Origin: Herbiconiux sp.
Lineage (GTDB): Bacteria; Actinomycetota; Actinomycetes; Actinomycetales; Microbacteriaceae
Direction of reading: 5' to 3'
Assembly: GCF_023264855.1 (NCBI RefSeq)
Contig: NZ_JAHFUW010000052.1
Location: forward strand, 1 to 35,471
DNA: 35,471 bases
Positions 27,510 through 35,471 of this stretch are shown one piece after another. The notes below the pieces were generated by a model, which was given only the letters and a program-made list of their open reading frames with translations, made no database searches and was not told the origin of the DNA. Position 1 is the first letter of the stretch, and every line of letters begins with the position of its first letter. A program made the position numbers and the translations under genes.

Positions 27510-27515
27510 TACGGT
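27510..27515 (+). promoter_or_regulatory. -10 element of the second tetR gene (leaderless)
   Basis: TACGGT lies two bases after the operator and seven bases before the GTG at 27523. It argues against the GTG at 27514, which overlaps it. Confidence 0.55.
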
Positions 27516-27522
27516 GGATGTC

Positions 27523-28107
27523 GTGCCCAGCAACCAGCCGATCGCCCGACCGCAGACCGACGTCGCGGCCGAGCTGCGCGCCATCGCGCTCGAGATGTTC
27601 GCCGAGAACGGGTACTCGGGCACGAGCCTGCAACAGATCGCGGAGGCGGCCGGCTACTCGAAGTCGAGCGTGCTCTACCACTTCCGGTCGAAGGAAGCGC
27701 TGTTCGAAGAGGCCCTCGCCCCCTCGGTGGCCGAGCTCGACGAGTTCCTCGGATCCATCGTCGCGAAGGTCACCTCCGACGGCCAGCGGGCGCAGTTCAC
27801 CGCCGACTTCGTCGACCTCCTGCTCGAGCACCGGCTGGCCGCCCACATCATCATCAATCAGGGCCAGACCCTCTCCGACATCCCGATGGTCGATCGTGCC
27901 ACGGGCCTCATCCAGCGCATCGGCGAGTCGTTCATGTCCGACCTGCCCACCACCAAGCAGCGCATCCGCCTCGGCGTCGCCCTCGCCGGAGCCGCCTACA
28001 TCCTGGTGGCCTCGCGCCCCAGTCTCACCGAGATCGACGACATCGACGAGGTCAGGGAAGCCCTCATCGACGTGGTCGGCGAACTGATCACTCCTTTGTC
28101 CTCCTAG
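27523..28107 (+). CDS. TetR/AcrR regulator of the MMPL-YhgE cassette
   Basis: 194 residues. The N-terminal helix-turn-helix is clear (ALEMFAENGYSGTSLQQIAEAAGYSKSSVLYHFRSKEALFEEAL). The C-terminal ligand domain is typical in size, but its ligand is unknown. GTG 27523 is used because TACGGT and a 7-base gap precede it; the GTG three codons earlier overlaps the -10 box. Two palindromic operators sit immediately upstream. The MMPL gene begins 72 bases after the stop in the same direction, so the regulator probably controls the whole TetR-MMPL-YhgE unit and is relieved by a pump substrate. Confidence 0.93.
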   Translation: MPSNQPIARPQTDVAAELRAIALEMFAENGYSGTSLQQIAEAAGYSKSSVLYHFRSKEALFEEALAPSVAELDEFLGSIVAKVTSDGQRAQFTADFVDLLLEHRLAAHIIINQGQTLSDIPMVDRATGLIQRIGESFMSDLPTTKQRIRLGVALAGAAYILVASRPSLTEIDDIDEVREALIDVVGELITPLSS

Positions 28108-28179: not shown

Positions 28180-31100
28180 ATGGCCACCCTGCTCTACCGC
28201 ATCGGCCGCTTCGCCTACCGCAAGGCCTGGTACGTGGTGCTGGCCTGGGTTCTCGCGCTCGGCGCCCTCCTCGGCGGAGGCCTCGCCCTCGGCGGGCAGT
28301 TCCAGGAGAGCTTCACGATCCCGGGCACCGAGTCGCAGCAGACCATCGACACGCTCGACAAACTGTTCCCCTCGGCGGCAGGCGCTGCGGCCACGGTCGT
28401 GGTGGTGGCCCCTGACGGCGCATCCGTCAACGACGACACCGTCAAGCAGGAGATCTCCGACGTCTCCGACGACCTCGGCAAGCTCGACCAGGTGGCCTCG
28501 GTCATCTCGCCGTACTCCGAGTACGCCACGAACGCGATCTCCGAGGACGGCACGACCGCGCTGATCAAGGTGCAGTTCGACGGGCCGGCGACGGATGTGA
28601 CGGACAGCACCATCGAGCAGGTGCAGACCGCCGGGAACTCGCTGCAGAGCGACGGCATGCAGATCTCCTACGGCGGCGAGGTGTTCACCACCACCACCTT
28701 CGGTCTGACGCCCACCGAGGGCATCGGCGTTCTGTTCGCCGGCGTCGTGCTGTTCATCACCTTCGGCTCGCTGCTCGCGGCCGGCCTGCCGCTGCTCACC
28801 GCGCTGCTCGGCGTGGGCATCTCCACCGGCGGCATCATGGCGGTCGCCAGCTTCACCACGGTCTCCAGCACCGCTCCCATGCTCGCCGTGATGATCGGTC
28901 TCGCCGTCGGGATCGACTACGCGCTGTTCATCCTGTCGCGCCACCGAAGCCAGTTGGCGCAGGGGATGGATCCGGAGGAGTCGGCGGCGCAATCGGTCGC
29001 GACCGCCGGCGGTGCCGTGGTGTTCGCGGGCCTGACCGTCATCATCGCGCTACTCGGACTGCTCGTGGTGGGCATCCCGTTCCTCTCGGTGATGGGCGTC
29101 GGCGCCGCCTTCGCGGTGTTCGCGGCCGTGTCGATCGCCATCACCCTGCTGCCCGCCATCCTGGGCCTGGCGAAGGGGCGGCTGATCCCGAAGCCCGGCT
29201 CGCGCGCGGCGCGGCGCGCGCTCGCCGCTGCCGAGCACGACGCGGAGGGGACGACGGCTGCGGCTCCGGCCGGCGACACCGAGACAACCACAGGGCCCAC
29301 AGTGGCCGCCAAACCGGCCAAGCCCCTCAAGCCGAGCCTCGGGGGCCGCTGGGTGGCGCTCGTGATGAAGGCGCCGATCGTGTTCATCGTGGCCGTGATC
29401 GGCCTGCTCGGCACGGTCGCCCTACCGGCCTTCAGCCTCGACCTCAACCTGCCCACCGCGGCCAGCCAGGCGGAGGGCAGCTCGGCCCGCATCGCCTACG
29501 ACACCATCGCCGAGAAGTTCGGGCCCGGCTACAACGGCACCATCGTGGTGGTGGCCGACATCACGCAGACCACCGCCATCCAGGACGACCTGGCGGGCAT
29601 CCGGAGCGAGCTCGAGGCCGTGCCCGGCGTCGCCACCGTGGGCCCCGGCATCCCCGACCAGACGCTCGACACCGCGATCTTCCAGGTGATCCCCACGACG
29701 GCTCCGGATGACCCGGCCACCAAGACCCTGGTGGAGAACCTGCGCGAGATGAAGGGCCAGGTCGAGGCCGACTACGGCGTGCCGTTCACGGTGAGCGGCC
29801 AGACCGCCGTCGCCATCGACGTGTCGAACCAGCTCACCGGAGCTCTGCTGCCGTTCGGCGTGCTCGTGATCGGGCTGTCGATCATCCTGCTGGCGATGGT
29901 GTTCCGCTCGATCGCGGTGCCCGTCAAGGCGGCGCTCGGCTTCGTGCTCACCGTCGGCGCCTCGTTCGGTGTGACGGTCGCCGTGTTCCAGGACGGCTGG
30001 TTCAACGACCTGCTGAACGTGCACGCGACCGGGCCGATCATCAGCTTCCTGCCGATCCTGCTGATGGCCATCCTGTTCGGGCTCGCCATGGACTACGAGG
30101 TGTTCCTCGTGTCGGGCATGCGCGAGGAATACGTCAAGACCCGGGATGCGAGACGGGCGGTGCGGATCGGGTTCCAGCACGGCGCCCGCGTGGTCACCGC
30201 CGCCGCCCTGATCATGTTCTTCGTGTTCTTCGCCTTCGTGCCGGAGGGTGACGGGCCCATCAAGGCCATCGCGCTGGCGCTCGCCGTGGGCGTGTTCGTC
30301 GACGCCTTCCTGGTGCGGATGACGCTGGTGCCCGCCGTGATGACCCTGCTCGGCGACAAGGCCTGGTACCTGCCCAAGTGGCTCGACCGCATCCTGCCGA
30401 ACGTCGACGTGGAGGGCGAGAGCCTGCGCGGTCACATCGAGGAGACGGAGTGGGCGTCGGTGCACACCGGTGACGCGGTCACGGCCGACGACCTGGTGGT
30501 GCCGGGAGCCGGTGTGTCGGCGAGCTTCTCGCTGCCGCGCGGCTCTGTCGGCGTGCTGACCGGCCCGACCGCGGCCCGCCGGCTGCTGGGTGCGGCCGTC
30601 GCCGGGCGGATCTCGCCGGAGAGTGGGCACCTGCAGGTTCTCGGCGCCTCACTGCCCTCGGAGGCCGGCTCGGTCGTGAAGCGCGTGACGCTGGTCGACC
30701 TCGACTCGCGGCGTCCGGACGTGTCGACGGCCGTGGGCGACGCGATCGGCGAGCGGCTCAGGCTGGCGAGGCCCTGGTTCAGGCGGGTGCCCCGCGGATC
30801 GGCGGAGCTGCTGGTCTCCCGCATCAACGCCTCGCTCGCCACCGTCGAGGGGGAGTCGCCGATCGACATCCACCGCACCCTCGGCGAGCTCTCGCCGCTC
30901 GCGCTCTCGCTGCTGTTCGTGGCGCTCGGCGTGGCCGACGGAGCCGAGCTTCTGGTGGTGGATGCGGGCGACGGCGACTTCGCGCATCCGGCCAGCCCGG
31001 CCTTCGCCGGCGCGGTGGCGGGGATCGCCGATCCCGGAACCGCCGTGCTGCTCGGCCTCGAGGAGGAACCCGCGCTGCACGCGGCCACGGTCGGCGACCG

Positions 31101-31230
31101 GCCGCTCGTGCGCATCGATCTGACCGCCTCGGCGGGCTCGTCCGCCTCCCCGGATTCGCCCACCCCGGGCGACTCGCCCGTCCCGACCGGCTCGTCCGTC
31201 TCGTCCGACTCGAAAGGAACCGTGCGATGA
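28180..31230 (+). CDS. MMPL (RND-type) transporter with degenerate ABC-ATPase-like C-terminus
   Basis: 1016 residues. Residues 1-750 form an MMPL transporter: two halves of one plus five helices, with key Asp residues D246 (GLAVGIDYALF) and D638 (FGLAMDYEVF), and a charged cytoplasmic loop between them. Residues about 785-960 read like an ABC ATPase that has lost its catalytic residues. GPTAARRLL (795-803) stands at Walker A but lacks the Gly and Lys. LSPLALS (904-910) stands at the signature. ELLVVD928 stands at Walker B with Ala in place of the catalytic Glu. A Ser/Pro-rich tail follows. GGAG seven bases upstream supports ATG 28180. The gene overlaps the YhgE start by four bases (ATGA), so the two are translationally coupled. 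Confidence 0.9.
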   Translation: MATLLYRIGRFAYRKAWYVVLAWVLALGALLGGGLALGGQFQESFTIPGTESQQTIDTLDKLFPSAAGAAATVVVVAPDGASVNDDTVKQEISDVSDDLGKLDQVASVISPYSEYATNAISEDGTTALIKVQFDGPATDVTDSTIEQVQTAGNSLQSDGMQISYGGEVFTTTTFGLTPTEGIGVLFAGVVLFITFGSLLAAGLPLLTALLGVGISTGGIMAVASFTTVSSTAPMLAVMIGLAVGIDYALFILSRHRSQLAQGMDPEESAAQSVATAGGAVVFAGLTVIIALLGLLVVGIPFLSVMGVGAAFAVFAAVSIAITLLPAILGLAKGRLIPKPGSRAARRALAAAEHDAEGTTAAAPAGDTETTTGPTVAAKPAKPLKPSLGGRWVALVMKAPIVFIVAVIGLLGTVALPAFSLDLNLPTAASQAEGSSARIAYDTIAEKFGPGYNGTIVVVADITQTTAIQDDLAGIRSELEAVPGVATVGPGIPDQTLDTAIFQVIPTTAPDDPATKTLVENLREMKGQVEADYGVPFTVSGQTAVAIDVSNQLTGALLPFGVLVIGLSIILLAMVFRSIAVPVKAALGFVLTVGASFGVTVAVFQDGWFNDLLNVHATGPIISFLPILLMAILFGLAMDYEVFLVSGMREEYVKTRDARRAVRIGFQHGARVVTAAALIMFFVFFAFVPEGDGPIKAIALALAVGVFVDAFLVRMTLVPAVMTLLGDKAWYLPKWLDRILPNVDVEGESLRGHIEETEWASVHTGDAVTADDLVVPGAGVSASFSLPRGSVGVLTGPTAARRLLGAAVAGRISPESGHLQVLGASLPSEAGSVVKRVTLVDLDSRRPDVSTAVGDAIGERLRLARPWFRRVPRGSAELLVSRINASLATVEGESPIDIHRTLGELSPLALSLLFVALGVADGAELLVVDAGDGDFAHPASPAFAGAVAGIADPGTAVLLGLEEEPALHAATVGDRPLVRIDLTASAGSSASPDSPTPGDSPVPTGSSVSSDSKGTVR

Positions 31231-33212
31231 GCACCGCGGAATCGACCGTGCAGACCACTCCGACGCCCCGGATGCGCCGCCGCACCAAGCTGGTGCTGGC
31301 CGTGCTGGCGACCCTCGCGGTGATCTTCACGCCGCTGGCCGTCAACGGCCTGTTCGCCGGCGCGCTGGCGAACGCCGACACCAACCTCAACACGGTGCCC
31401 GCGGCGATCGTGAACGAAGACGAGATGACCACGACGACCGCGGCCGACGGCACCCAGACGGTGAACTTCGCCGGGCGCGGGCTCGTCACCGAACTCACCG
31501 GCTCGTCCAGCGGCTTCGACTGGCAGCTCACCAATGCGGATGACGCAGCGGCGGGCCTGGCCGACGGCACCTACTACGCCGTGCTCACCATCCCGAAGGA
31601 CTTCTCGGCGACTCTCAACACCCTCGCGACCTCGAACCCGCAACAGGGTCTGATCGACATCCGCACGAATGCCTCGCACGGCTACCTCTCGGGCGTCGTG
31701 GCCTCCACGGTGGCCTCGGCCGTCCAGGCCGGCTTCGGCCAGACCGTCACCGCGCAGGTCGTCAACGGCATCTACACGAGCTTCGGCACGGTGGGCACGA
31801 GCCTCACGGATGCCGCGAACGGCGCGACGCAGCTGGCCACCGGGGCCGACGGTCTGGCCTCCGGATCGGCGCAGCTGGCCGACGGCCTGAACCAGCTCGG
31901 CGCCGGAGCCGCGACCGCCGCATCCGGGGCCTCACAGCTCTCGGACGGCGTGGCCGCCTACACGGGCGGGGTCTCGGACCTGTCGACGGGACTGAACACG
32001 ATCGCGGCTGAGACGGGGTCGCTCGGGCAGCTCTCGACGGGTGTCACCGACTACACGAAGGGCGTCACCGCCCTGTCCCAGGGCTACGACCAGATGATCG
32101 CGGCGCTGGCACCCGCGCTCGCCCCCGAGGTGAAGGCGCAGCTCGACGCGTACGGCACGCAGCTCAGCGGTGCGGCCGCGGCCGGTCCGCAACTCGCGGC
32201 CGGAGCATCCGGTCTCCCCGCCCTCTCCGACGGCATCGCTCAGGCGGCCGCCGGCGCCGACCAGCTCGCGGCCAACGGTCCCGACCTCGCCTCCGGGGCC
32301 TCCGGTCTCGCCGACGGCGTGAGTCAGCTCGCCACCGGCGTGCAGCAGACCGTGCCCGGTGCGCAGCAGCTCGGTAGCGGCGCCACGCAGCTCGGCGACG
32401 GTGCGCGCACGCTCGCCTCGGGCCTGCAGACCGGCGCCGACCAGCTCGGCGGCAACGCCTCGGGCGACACCCAGGCCGCGGCCGACGTGATCGCGCAGCC
32501 CGTGAAGGTCGACGTGAGCACGGCGAACCAGGTCACCGCCGTGGGCCAGATCGTCTCCACCATCCTGCTGCCGACCGCGCTCTGGATCGGTGCCCTCGCG
32601 CTGTTCCTGTGGCTGCGGCCGTTCTCGAAGGCGGTGCTGGCCAGCTCGGTCAGTACGGCGCGCCTCACCGTGCGCACCTTCGGACGAGCGGCGCTGTTCG
32701 CCGCGGCGCAGGCGGCGCTGCTGGTGGCGTTCCTGCACCTGTTCCTCGGGGTGGCGTGGAGCTCGCTCCCGGCGACGCTCGGCTTCTCGCTGATCGTGGC
32801 GTTGGCGTTCACCGCGTTTCACCAACTGCTCACGACGGCGTTCGGCCGGGTCGGCGCCGTGATCTCACTGGTGCTGCTCGCGCTGCAGCTGGCGGCGACG
32901 GGTGGTCTGTACCCCGTCGAGATCCTGTCGGGTCCGTTCCAGGCGATCAGCGCGATCAGTCCGCTCGCGTATGCGGTGTCCGGCATCCAGACCATCCTGA
33001 CCGGCGGTGATGCCGGAGTGGTGGTGACGGCGGCGCTCGTGATGGCCGCGATCCTGCTGGTGAGCATCCTGCTCTCCGGGGTGGCGCTGGCCCGCCGGCG
33101 GCGACCCGTGGAGCTCGGCTGGCTCGTGCCCCGGCGCGAGCCGCTGGCCGCCCCGCGAAGCCGCGCGCAGTCCGCGCTTCTCCCGGCGCCGCGTCCCGCG
33201 CCCTCGAGCTGA
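31227..33212 (+). CDS. YhgE/Pip domain membrane protein
   Basis: 661 residues. One N-terminal helix (LVLAVLATLAVIFTPLAV) is followed by a large extracytoplasmic part. Residues about 195-425 consist of repeated Gly-x3-Leu-x2-Gly units (GATQLATGADGLASG, GSAQLADGLNQLGAG and so on), an elongated helical or coiled form. Then come about five C-terminal helices (about 440-640), as in ABC-2-type permeases. The family resembles phage-infection protein Pip and EsaA/YueB. ATG 31227 overlaps the MMPL stop, with AAGGA about eight bases upstream. It probably works with the MMPL protein in exporting an envelope component or toxic compound. Confidence 0.9.
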   Translation: MSTAESTVQTTPTPRMRRRTKLVLAVLATLAVIFTPLAVNGLFAGALANADTNLNTVPAAIVNEDEMTTTTAADGTQTVNFAGRGLVTELTGSSSGFDWQLTNADDAAAGLADGTYYAVLTIPKDFSATLNTLATSNPQQGLIDIRTNASHGYLSGVVASTVASAVQAGFGQTVTAQVVNGIYTSFGTVGTSLTDAANGATQLATGADGLASGSAQLADGLNQLGAGAATAASGASQLSDGVAAYTGGVSDLSTGLNTIAAETGSLGQLSTGVTDYTKGVTALSQGYDQMIAALAPALAPEVKAQLDAYGTQLSGAAAAGPQLAAGASGLPALSDGIAQAAAGADQLAANGPDLASGASGLADGVSQLATGVQQTVPGAQQLGSGATQLGDGARTLASGLQTGADQLGGNASGDTQAAADVIAQPVKVDVSTANQVTAVGQIVSTILLPTALWIGALALFLWLRPFSKAVLASSVSTARLTVRTFGRAALFAAAQAALLVAFLHLFLGVAWSSLPATLGFSLIVALAFTAFHQLLTTAFGRVGAVISLVLLALQLAATGGLYPVEILSGPFQAISAISPLAYAVSGIQTILTGGDAGVVVTAALVMAAILLVSILLSGVALARRRRPVELGWLVPRREPLAAPRSRAQSALLPAPRPAPSS

Positions 33213-33287: not shown

Positions 33288-35471
33288 GTGCTGCGCGACG
33301 TCTCGAATCGTCCGATCCGTGTCATCCGGAACCGTCAGGAGCGAGCCGGGCGGACGGCCGCTGCGGTCGCCGCGGCCGTCGTGCTGGGCGCCCTGGTGGC
33401 CGTGCCGACGGCAGCCCACGCCGATCCGCTTCCCGGCGGTGGATCCGTCGTGAGCTCCGACGGCGTGCTGGCCTCCGCGCTGGAGCGACTCGCTGCATCC
33501 GGAGCCTCGCCGAGTTCCGATGAGGGTGCCGGGGCGGCCGGGCTCCCGGCGGAGGGATCCGGCAGCCTCGTCGTCGACGAGGCCGACCGCGTGGTCGTCG
33601 ACATCCGCTTCGCCGGTGAGGCCGAGCAGGCGGCTGCGGTCGATGCCGTGGCCGGTCTCGCGGAGGTGCGCTCGGTCACCGAGAGCGCGCCCACGATCGT
33701 GGCGTACGCGACGCCCGGGAGCTTCTCCGCCCTCGCCGCGCTGCCTGGTGCCGTGGCCGTGAACCCGGCGCTCACGCCGGCCGTGACGGGCGCCGCCACG
33801 CTCACGACGCCCGACGACGTGACCGCGGCCGCCGAGGCGGGCGCGTCCAGCGGATCCGCCGCAGGCGCCGCTCCGGACGCCGCGACCTGCCGCAGCATCC
33901 CGGTCAACTCCGCGGCACCGCTGAAGGCCGACCTCGCGCGAGCCGACTTCGGCGTCGACGGCACCGGCGTGCACGTGGGCATCATCTCGAACTCCTTCGA
34001 CCTCGCCGGCCCGTCCGAGCCGGACGTGCTGGTCGGCAGCCTCCCCGGACCCGGCAACCCCTGCGGCTACTCCACGCCCGTTAAGGTGCTGGCGCAGGAG
34101 GACCCCACGCTACTGAAGGCCACTGACGAGGGCCGGGCGATGGCCCAGGTGGTGCACGGCATCGCCCCCGGCGCCACGCTGAGCTTCTCGACGATGGGCG
34201 TGACCGACGCCGAGTTCGCCGACAGCATCCTCAAGCTGCAGCGCGCCGGCGCCGACGTGATCGTCGACGACGCCGTGCAGTACGACGAGCCGTGGTACCA
34301 GCAGGGGCTGATCGCGCAGACCATCCAGACGGTCACCGAGCAGGGCGTGCTCTACATCGCCGCCGCGCAGAACGAGGGCAGCGTCGGCACGGTCGGTGAC
34401 GGCACCGAGTACCAGAGCATCGGATCGTGGGAGGCCGAGTCCTACCGCCCCATGGAGTGCATGCCGGCCGTGGTCGAGTACGCGAAGAAGCACTTCCCGG
34501 ATGACATCTTCGACTGCAACGACTTCGCCCCGGACGGTGCGGAGGCCGACCCGCTGCTGGTCGCCAGCTTCGACGTGGGCGACCCCGTGAACCCCATCAC
34601 CATCGTCGCGCAGTGGACCGAGCCGGTCGACGGGCTGCAGACCACGGTGATTCCGTTCGTCGTGTTCCAGGCGTCGGCGGATGCCGCTCCGGAGGTGCTC
34701 GGCACCTCGGGCACTCTGGGTGCCGATGTGCCCGCCAGCATGGCGCAGGTGAAGACGCCGCCCGGCCCGAGTGCCACCTACGGCATATCGCTCGCTCGCG
34801 TGACCAACCACGGAACTCCGCATCTGCCGGGCGTGAAGATGATCTTCGCGCTCGACGACGCCGGCGTGGCGAATCTCAAATACTCGGGGGACTGGCCGGC
34901 CGGAGTCACCGTGGGCCCCACGGTGTTCGCGCATCCGGCCGACCCGAGCACCTTCACGATCGGGGCGGCCGTGTCCTTCGTGCCGACCGAGATGGAGCTG
35001 TTCTCCGGCACCGGTCCGGCGCGGTACCTCTTCGCCCCCGTCGAGGTGAAGCAGCGCATCGCGGCCGAGAGACTGGCCGAGCCGACGGTTCTGGTGAAAC
35101 CCGATGTCGTCGGTGTCGACCAGGTGCGGAACACCTTCTTCGGCACACATGTGACGTCCGGGCCCCTGGAGGGGTACTACTTCATCGGCACGTCGGCGGC
35201 GGCGCCGAACATCGCCGGCGTGGCGGCGCTCGCGCTGCAGTACTCGCCGGAGGCGACCGTGGCTGATCTCCGGGCCGCGTTCGAGGCGACCGCCGTGCCG
35301 CTGCCGGCCCAGCGCTGGAGCTCCGGCGTGAGCGACGAGAACGTGTGGGGCAGCGGGCTCGTGGATGCCGACGCCCTGCTCGGCGCACTGCCGCCGGCGC
35401 CCGCACCGGTGCCGGCCGCGGAGGGTCCTCACCTCGCCGCCACGGGTGAGGCGGCCGAGCCGCTCGGCGCC
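33288..35471 (+). CDS. Secreted S8 (subtilase) family protein, atypical active site; partial
   Basis: 728 codons are seen; the 3' end is outside the window. A signal peptide covers residues 1-45 (RTAAAVAAAVVLGALVAV, cut after AHA). A propeptide-like region leads to a subtilase domain at about 220-690. The Asp motif reads IISNSFD (N235 where Asp is expected). The His motif reads DEGRAMAQVVHG, with E281 at the His position, as in a divergent S8 group and in sedolisins. S636 in GTSAAAP and the oxyanion Asn in AAAQNEG are present. LAATG at 716-720 fits a LAXTG sortase signal. GTG 33288 follows GGGGG by six bases. Protease activity is uncertain. Confidence 0.85.
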   Translation, partial: MLRDVSNRPIRVIRNRQERAGRTAAAVAAAVVLGALVAVPTAAHADPLPGGGSVVSSDGVLASALERLAASGASPSSDEGAGAAGLPAEGSGSLVVDEADRVVVDIRFAGEAEQAAAVDAVAGLAEVRSVTESAPTIVAYATPGSFSALAALPGAVAVNPALTPAVTGAATLTTPDDVTAAAEAGASSGSAAGAAPDAATCRSIPVNSAAPLKADLARADFGVDGTGVHVGIISNSFDLAGPSEPDVLVGSLPGPGNPCGYSTPVKVLAQEDPTLLKATDEGRAMAQVVHGIAPGATLSFSTMGVTDAEFADSILKLQRAGADVIVDDAVQYDEPWYQQGLIAQTIQTVTEQGVLYIAAAQNEGSVGTVGDGTEYQSIGSWEAESYRPMECMPAVVEYAKKHFPDDIFDCNDFAPDGAEADPLLVASFDVGDPVNPITIVAQWTEPVDGLQTTVIPFVVFQASADAAPEVLGTSGTLGADVPASMAQVKTPPGPSATYGISLARVTNHGTPHLPGVKMIFALDDAGVANLKYSGDWPAGVTVGPTVFAHPADPSTFTIGAAVSFVPTEMELFSGTGPARYLFAPVEVKQRIAAERLAEPTVLVKPDVVGVDQVRNTFFGTHVTSGPLEGYYFIGTSAAAPNIAGVAALALQYSPEATVADLRAAFEATAVPLPAQRWSSGVSDENVWGSGLVDADALLGALPPAPAPVPAAEGPHLAATGEAAEPLGA

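Follow-up and report, generated by a model that had tools for sequence, protein, structure and literature searches.

A degenerate nucleotide-binding domain of the YhgE-partner family fused to an MMPL pump and linked to YhgE genes in Herbiconiux and related actinobacteria

ATP-binding cassette (ABC) exporters and pumps of the RND/MMPL type are treated as distinct ways of powering export. A locus of Herbiconiux sp. (family Microbacteriaceae, order Actinomycetales, class Actinomycetes; contig NZ_JAHFUW010000052.1 of assembly GCF_023264855.1) raises the question of what the C-terminal tail of an MMPL pump is, and why the gene for a YhgE/Pip permease stands directly behind it. The stretch analyzed, termed the window, is 35,471 nucleotides long. 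A preliminary description of it proposed that the tail is an apparently dead ABC-ATPase-like domain coupled to YhgE. As judged from sequence profiles and a predicted structure, the tail is a degenerate nucleotide-binding domain (NBD) of the family that partners YhgE, fused to the MMPL pump, and not a working ABC ATPase.

The only Pfam family recognized in the 1016-residue protein is MMPL (271.6 bits, E = 1.1e-80, two stretches), and the tail taken alone has no Pfam match and no sequence match in the PDB by phmmer. The one direct sequence hint is a match to the NCBIfam model of the NodI ABC ATPase (E = 0.011, tail residues 33 to 92); a profile of 21 tails weakly matches NBDs of the MsbA and TmrAB type in the PDB (best E = 0.037), with some of the 16 matches being unrelated proteins. 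Modeled with AlphaFold2 (AF2) from window positions 30370-31119 together with 20 relatives, the tail gives a confident structure (predicted local distance difference test score [pLDDT], 86.8; predicted TM-score [pTM], 0.84), in which the order of strands and helices resembles that of NBDs, whose established order served for the comparison. A Foldseek search with this model against the PDB returned 1033 matches with E ≤0.001, the strongest at 5.8e-11. Judged by their titles, the 50 listed are almost all ABC ATPases or transporters (among them CbiO, FtsE, MlaF, and the Mce1 complex); some, e.g., 7ekl_A and 9a6w_B, have titles that do not name one. The TM-scores of the matches listed are mostly about 0.5 to 0.6. 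Given the confident model and these matches, the resemblance to NBDs is more than chance. The predicted fold is that of an NBD, which is settled by profiles and structure and not by direct sequence search. The proposed fusion of an MMPL pump to a C-terminal ABC-ATPase-like domain is thus borne out, the suggested structure prediction and fold search having returned an NBD rather than a fold without likeness to one.

The motifs of the nucleotide site are lost. GPTAARRLL lies at residues 795-803, as numbered in the preliminary description, and lacks the GK[ST] of the Walker A pattern GxxGxGK[ST]. It is followed, in the order given there, by ISPESGHLQVLG (811-822), LSPLALS (904-910) in the place of the LSGGQ signature, and ELLVVDA (923-929), in which LLVVDA keeps the Walker B Asp and lacks the catalytic Glu. 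The window protein also has no match at the gathering score of Pfam ABC_tran. From these missing motifs, the earlier claim that the tail does not hydrolyze ATP is well supported.

The same loss runs through most of the fused domains. Scored by the pattern GxxxxG[KR][ST], the P-loop is absent from 73 of the 76 fused domains in the window's order, occurring in 0/34 of the long type, to which the window domain belongs (it, too, has none), and in 3/42 of the short type, in which the helical and signature part is lost. It is intact in all six fused domains read from the group of another genome, G805. Free-standing NBDs have it in 20/20 cases when chosen via the tail, in 4/19 from the order (found mainly via YhgE), and in 8/11 from the rest of the class. 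A match to the P-loop pattern in L182 was rejected, as the alignment shows no P-loop there, and a zero count from a narrow LSGGQ pattern was not used, as that pattern found only two of five control ABC proteins that had been chosen by their own motifs.

In the long type, a conserved GxxxxRR stands where the P-loop was (G795 in 32/35 domains, R800 in 34/35, and R801 in 31/35), the Walker B Asp is kept in 31/35 and Glu is found in 3, and the ISPESGHLQVLG strand, along with the helix that precedes it, is the best conserved part of the aligned domains. Among 132 aligned related domains (that of the window not included), Asp occupies the Walker B position in 102, and an Asp-Glu pair occurs in none; Glu is found there only in L167 and L168, each time after Ser. 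With no such pair in 132 domains, even the free-standing family looks catalytically unusual. The free-standing YhgE-partner NBDs (L133-L166, L169, L170, L172, L174, L201, and L222-L233) all lack the Asp-Glu pair, those with an intact P-loop included, and they may be a little-studied ABC subfamily in their own right.

The ratios of nonsynonymous to synonymous substitution rates (dN/dS), computed for 15 pairs, are 0.07-0.36 for the tail versus 0-0.22 for the core. By this measure the tail is under purifying selection, and the ratios, taken together with the loss of the motifs, mean that selection keeps the fold and not the ATP site.

Linkage of the tail to YhgE extends well beyond the window, where the two genes overlap in an ATGA at 31227, an overlap already given in the preliminary description, and where the YhgE protein passes both NCBIfam models of its family (TIGR03062, 156.8 bits against a cut-off of 102.2; TIGR03061, 130.1 against 96.15). 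Homologs with the tail in other genomes, on which the proposal depended, are common: the tail is present in 15/15 other Herbiconiux genomes searched and, at 45% identity, in one genome of another genus, and the tail profile finds matches in 171/299 genomes and 59/85 genera of the family, including some free-standing homologs. The family matches listed are mostly open reading frames (ORFs) of roughly 930-1250 amino acids, with some short ORFs. Matches extend to 232/297 genomes of the order, many covering only the end of the MMPL core. Of the matches listed from 198 genomes drawn across the phylum, none is a fused tail except in the genome that carries the window.

From the family and order matches we selected 60 fused genes found via the tail (59 from other genomes plus a second copy in the window's own genome) and 20 free-standing homologs. 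YhgE comes next on the same strand in 80/80 cases, the distance from the MMPL or NBD stop to the first aligned YhgE residue being -36 to 318 bases for fused and 9 to 58 for free-standing genes. As a control, 20 tail-less MMPL genes, matched at the core end only, have YhgE in 0/20 cases within the roughly 5 kb examined downstream. The contrast of 60/60 with 0/20 gives a Fisher p of 2.8e-19 with kinship ignored, the test using the genes found via the tail and leaving out the 16 of all 76 fused genes that were found via YhgE.

Searching in reverse, we found 56 YhgE genes in 37/59 genomes of the order. Upstream lie a fused MMPL gene in 22 cases, a free-standing NBD-like gene in 20 (some of these calls, e.g., L161 and L169, rest on weak profile matches), tandem pairs without an NBD in 10, none of these in 3, and a contig end in 1. 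A tail-less MMPL gene stands directly before 0/56, although L188 has a partial MMPL-like frame about 4 kb upstream. Elsewhere in the class, where 20 of 22 YhgE genes were read and two weak ones left out, 12 of the 13 full-length genes lie behind a free-standing NBD and 1 behind a fused MMPL. The association of YhgE with a neighboring ABC-ATPase gene, mentioned in the preliminary description, is therefore real, and the survey it proposed of fused versus separate NBDs and their Walker motifs finds both forms preceding YhgE, with P-loops mostly lost when fused.

Some YhgE genes are arranged differently. Tandem YhgE pairs without an upstream NBD-like gene (L173, L175, L176, L178-L181, L187, L192, and L197) come from four genomes of the order, and L234-L240 are short YhgE-like proteins of about 450-590 amino acids that fall below the family cut-off.

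Fusion is also found in copies with an intact NBD. In L232, from genome G805 of another order, a single chain joins MMPL (Pfam, 294.5 bits) to a full NBD with GPSGSGKT (ABC_tran, 56.9 bits against a cut-off of 25) and is followed by YhgE; matches of this type occur in 21/149 genomes of that family (E ≤2.6e-52), all in one genus, and the six P-loops read there are intact. Among eight fused proteins, including that of the window, L232, L108, and L198 exceed the cut-offs of MMPL and ABC_tran alike (ABC_tran at 56.9, 27.8, and 28.0 bits), L107 stays under the cut-off at 20.6 bits, and the other four, the window protein among them, have no ABC_tran match. L108 and L198 belong to the window's order. 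The fusion is therefore shown by curated models, independently of the degenerate window copy. Free-standing NBDs beside YhgE likewise pass ABC_tran (L149, 40.4 bits; L144 and L136, 32.2 bits; L223, 41.1 bits), and the degenerate free-standing L158 and L163 do not match it.

In the MMPL tree, the tailed proteins and the tail-less L220 form one clade (support, 100), and L220, nested within it, has no YhgE in the downstream stretch examined. The P-loop forms L107, L108, and L198 are scattered across the short-type clade, which by our reading of this tree calls for at least two losses following fusion on well-supported forks, unless the P-loop was regained. In some lineages at least, the ATP site appears to have decayed once fusion had taken place; in the long type its loss may have come either before or after. 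The NBD tree needs three changes between fused and free forms and places the intact fused form next to free-standing NBDs (support, 90), but in the MMPL tree L232 groups with L198 within the tailed clade (support, 97); because the two conflict, between one and three fusion events are compatible with the data. The NBD tree took in 98/132 domains, with 8 of 42 short-type fused ones, and is too weak for a fusion count. Some rows were left out of the alignments (L019 and L020, with shorter tails, from A1; L027 from A2 and A3; L026 from A3).

The genome that carries the window also points to the YhgE-partner family. A profile of free-standing NBDs ranks the window tail first among 93 matches there (4.7e-20; next, 1.4e-16), i.e., closer to those NBDs than the other ABC ATPases scored, the scan having scored 150 of 257 first-look candidates. 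This genome has two more YhgE genes, one on C43 (L132, 1772-7026), behind a second MMPL whose differently degenerate tail has no P-loop, and one on C5 (L158, 3443-6645), behind a free-standing NBD-like gene without a P-loop. No intact family member able to partner the tail was found in this genome, the lower of the 93 matches not each having been read.

How, then, might the pump and the permease be connected? On balance we favor a bipartite exporter in which the pseudo-NBD tail ties the MMPL pump and YhgE together, its fold kept and its nucleotide site decayed. The tail is an ABC ATPase domain of the YhgE-partner family that extends a proton-driven MMPL pump at its cytoplasmic end, and we infer that it docks on the cytoplasmic face of YhgE, in the place of an NBD, and so joins the two as one exporter. 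Since ATP hydrolysis by the normal mechanism is not expected of the tail, the proton gradient would supply the energy via MMPL. The coupling could be mechanical, or MMPL could pass a lipid-like substrate on to YhgE and the long extracytoplasmic helical domain of this permease. That tailed pumps are followed by an ABC-type permease gene suggests that both transporter types work as one machine. A hint from another organism, Saccharopolyspora hirsuta, is that cholesterol induces two genes with neighboring locus tags, one for YhgE (3.82-fold) and one for an MMPL protein, with or without a tail (3.33-fold), according to Table 2 of PMC9782250.

A broader reading takes the locus as one of a class of hybrid exporters, in which an RND/MMPL pump with a captured ABC-2 NBD drives or gates an orphaned YhgE and proton power has replaced ATP in many actinobacterial lineages; this we put forward tentatively, as somewhat less probable than its negation. 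If true, the widespread fusion with loss of the ATP site would be a natural experiment in swapping the energy source of a transporter. It would also give a working hypothesis for the function of YhgE, a permease family on which the literature searched, in the portions available, holds little functional work.

Several observations weigh against the bipartite exporter. Contact between tail and YhgE is presumed, and linkage in an operon can also be explained by a common substrate or by regulation. In 13/15 pairs the tail evolves faster than the core. P-loops are retained in 3/76 fused domains of the order and in 6/6 from one other genus; for some fused domains, then, binding of a nucleotide may remain important. 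YhgE does not always need an NBD, given that the 10 tandem-pair genes and 3 others in the order have no such NBD upstream, and none of the 7 short YhgE-like genes elsewhere in the class has one directly upstream. Finally, a fold search with the YhgE model, itself poor (pTM, 0.35), gave nothing at E ≤0.001, the list consisting mostly of coiled coils and unrelated proteins; 3cni, a domain of a putative ABC-2 transporter, appears in it at E = 8.8e-3.

Among the alternatives, the tail could be a regulatory or localization domain whose Arg-Arg loop binds a nucleotide, a phospholipid head, or a protein and thereby sets the activity or position of the pump, with YhgE merely cotranscribed. The near invariance of R800 and R801, which plain decay would not keep, speaks for such a role, as does the report, in the portion of PMC6656915 available, that the last ~200 cytoplasmic residues of MmpL3 are needed for polar localization and not for viability. 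We nevertheless regard it as unlikely, as it leaves unexplained both the free-standing NBDs that stand beside YhgE without MMPL and the complete linkage of tailed, as opposed to tail-less, pumps to YhgE.

Less likely again is a heterodimeric ABC motor in which the tail is the degenerate half and the intact NBD comes from another gene, YhgE then being driven by ATP. A class of ABC exporters in which one site is degenerate has been described (PMC7756269), and, as the 93 profile matches show, ordinary ABC ATPases are numerous in the genome. The tail itself, however, is the family member that matches best there, and both other YhgE partners in that genome (L132 and L158) have no P-loop, the lower matches not each having been read. 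In the known heterodimeric ABC exporters considered here, moreover, both halves are encoded in one operon, which also counts against this arrangement.

It is very improbable that the tail binds ATP noncanonically and acts as an energy-charge switch rather than a motor. The retained Walker B Asp, an Arg at or adjoining the position of the Walker A Lys, and the P-loops of some fused relatives are in keeping with a switch; against it, the Gly-rich turn is lost, the loop is by eye one residue shorter than in the free-standing L149, and no long-type domain matches the P-loop pattern. That the tail is a functionless relic, as the missing catalytic motifs and the truncated short type might suggest, is hardly credible in view of its low dN/dS and of a fold and several nearly invariant residues kept across genera.

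The bipartite exporter that we favor would differ from each of the systems it resembles. The pump is like the MmpL3-type transporters in having two MMPL stretches, a core in which a simple hydropathy scan counts 12 hydrophobic segments, and, at residues 246 and 638, DY pairs that we take to correspond to the proton relay of MmpL3; the NCBIfam MmpL3 model covers its residues 9-740, with a score far under the cut-off. A 13th hydrophobic segment (909-927) falls in the signature helix of the tail. In MmpL3 itself, about 200 residues at the C terminus are cytoplasmic (PMC6656915), whereas the C-terminal domain of the window pump has an NBD fold and its gene is linked to YhgE.

The NodIJ and DrrAB ABC-2 exporters are similar in that the free-standing NBDs have the NodI and DrrA models among their top named matches and that the DrrB and, weakly, the NodJ models of NCBIfam match the C-terminal part of YhgE. 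NodI and DrrA are separate active ATPases, whereas the NBD in the window is part of a proton-driven pump and has neither P-loop nor LSGGQ nor catalytic Glu. The window YhgE is typical of YhgE/Pip permeases in passing both family models and in its LxxG heptad repeats (it also matches Pfam ABC2_membrane_3 at E = 7.4e-18); such permeases are usually annotated as stand-alone proteins, whereas this gene overlaps an MMPL gene bearing a pseudo-NBD. The degenerate NBDs of heterodimeric exporters of the TmrAB and CFTR type likewise keep the fold and have an impaired nucleotide site, but they have an active NBD as partner and in most cases retain ATP binding, and we know of no degenerate NBD on an RND/MMPL pump. 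We found no account of an MMPL-NBD fusion or of an MMPL-YhgE pair as a system in the literature within scope, seen in part, which left out most subscription papers and all bioRxiv preprints.

Table 1. Features of the pump-permease locus in the window
Feature	Position	Strand	Basis or remark
MMPL pump gene with degenerate NBD tail	28180-31230	+	ORF, 1016 amino acids
MMPL (RND-type) transporter core, residues 1-748	28180..30423	+	Pfam MMPL, NCBIfam MmpL3 model, hydropathy, DY pairs
Degenerate ABC NBD, residues 749-980	30424..31119	+	AF2, Foldseek, own-genome NBD profile
Former Walker A GPTAARRL, residues 795-802	30562..30585	+	Sequence and alignment; without GK[ST]
Strand after P-loop helix, ISPESGHLQVLG, residues 811-822	30610..30645	+	Sequence and alignment
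ABC signature position LSPLALS, residues 904-910	30889..30909	+	Sequence; not LSGGQ
Walker B position ELLVVDA, residues 923-929	30946..30966	+	Asp928 kept, Ala replaces catalytic Glu
Ser/Pro-rich low-complexity C terminus, residues 981-1016	31120..31227	+	Sequence
YhgE/Pip permease, 661 amino acids, ABC-2-like C-terminal membrane part	31227-33212	+	NCBIfam, Pfam
TetR-family regulator upstream of pump gene	27514..28107	+	Pfam TetR_N, E 1.3e-16

Judging by its position, the TetR-family gene (Table 1) probably controls the MMPL-YhgE operon. Directly after YhgE, an ORF at 33288-35471 has a secretion-like start and a GTSAAAP motif, which is presumably subtilisin-like.

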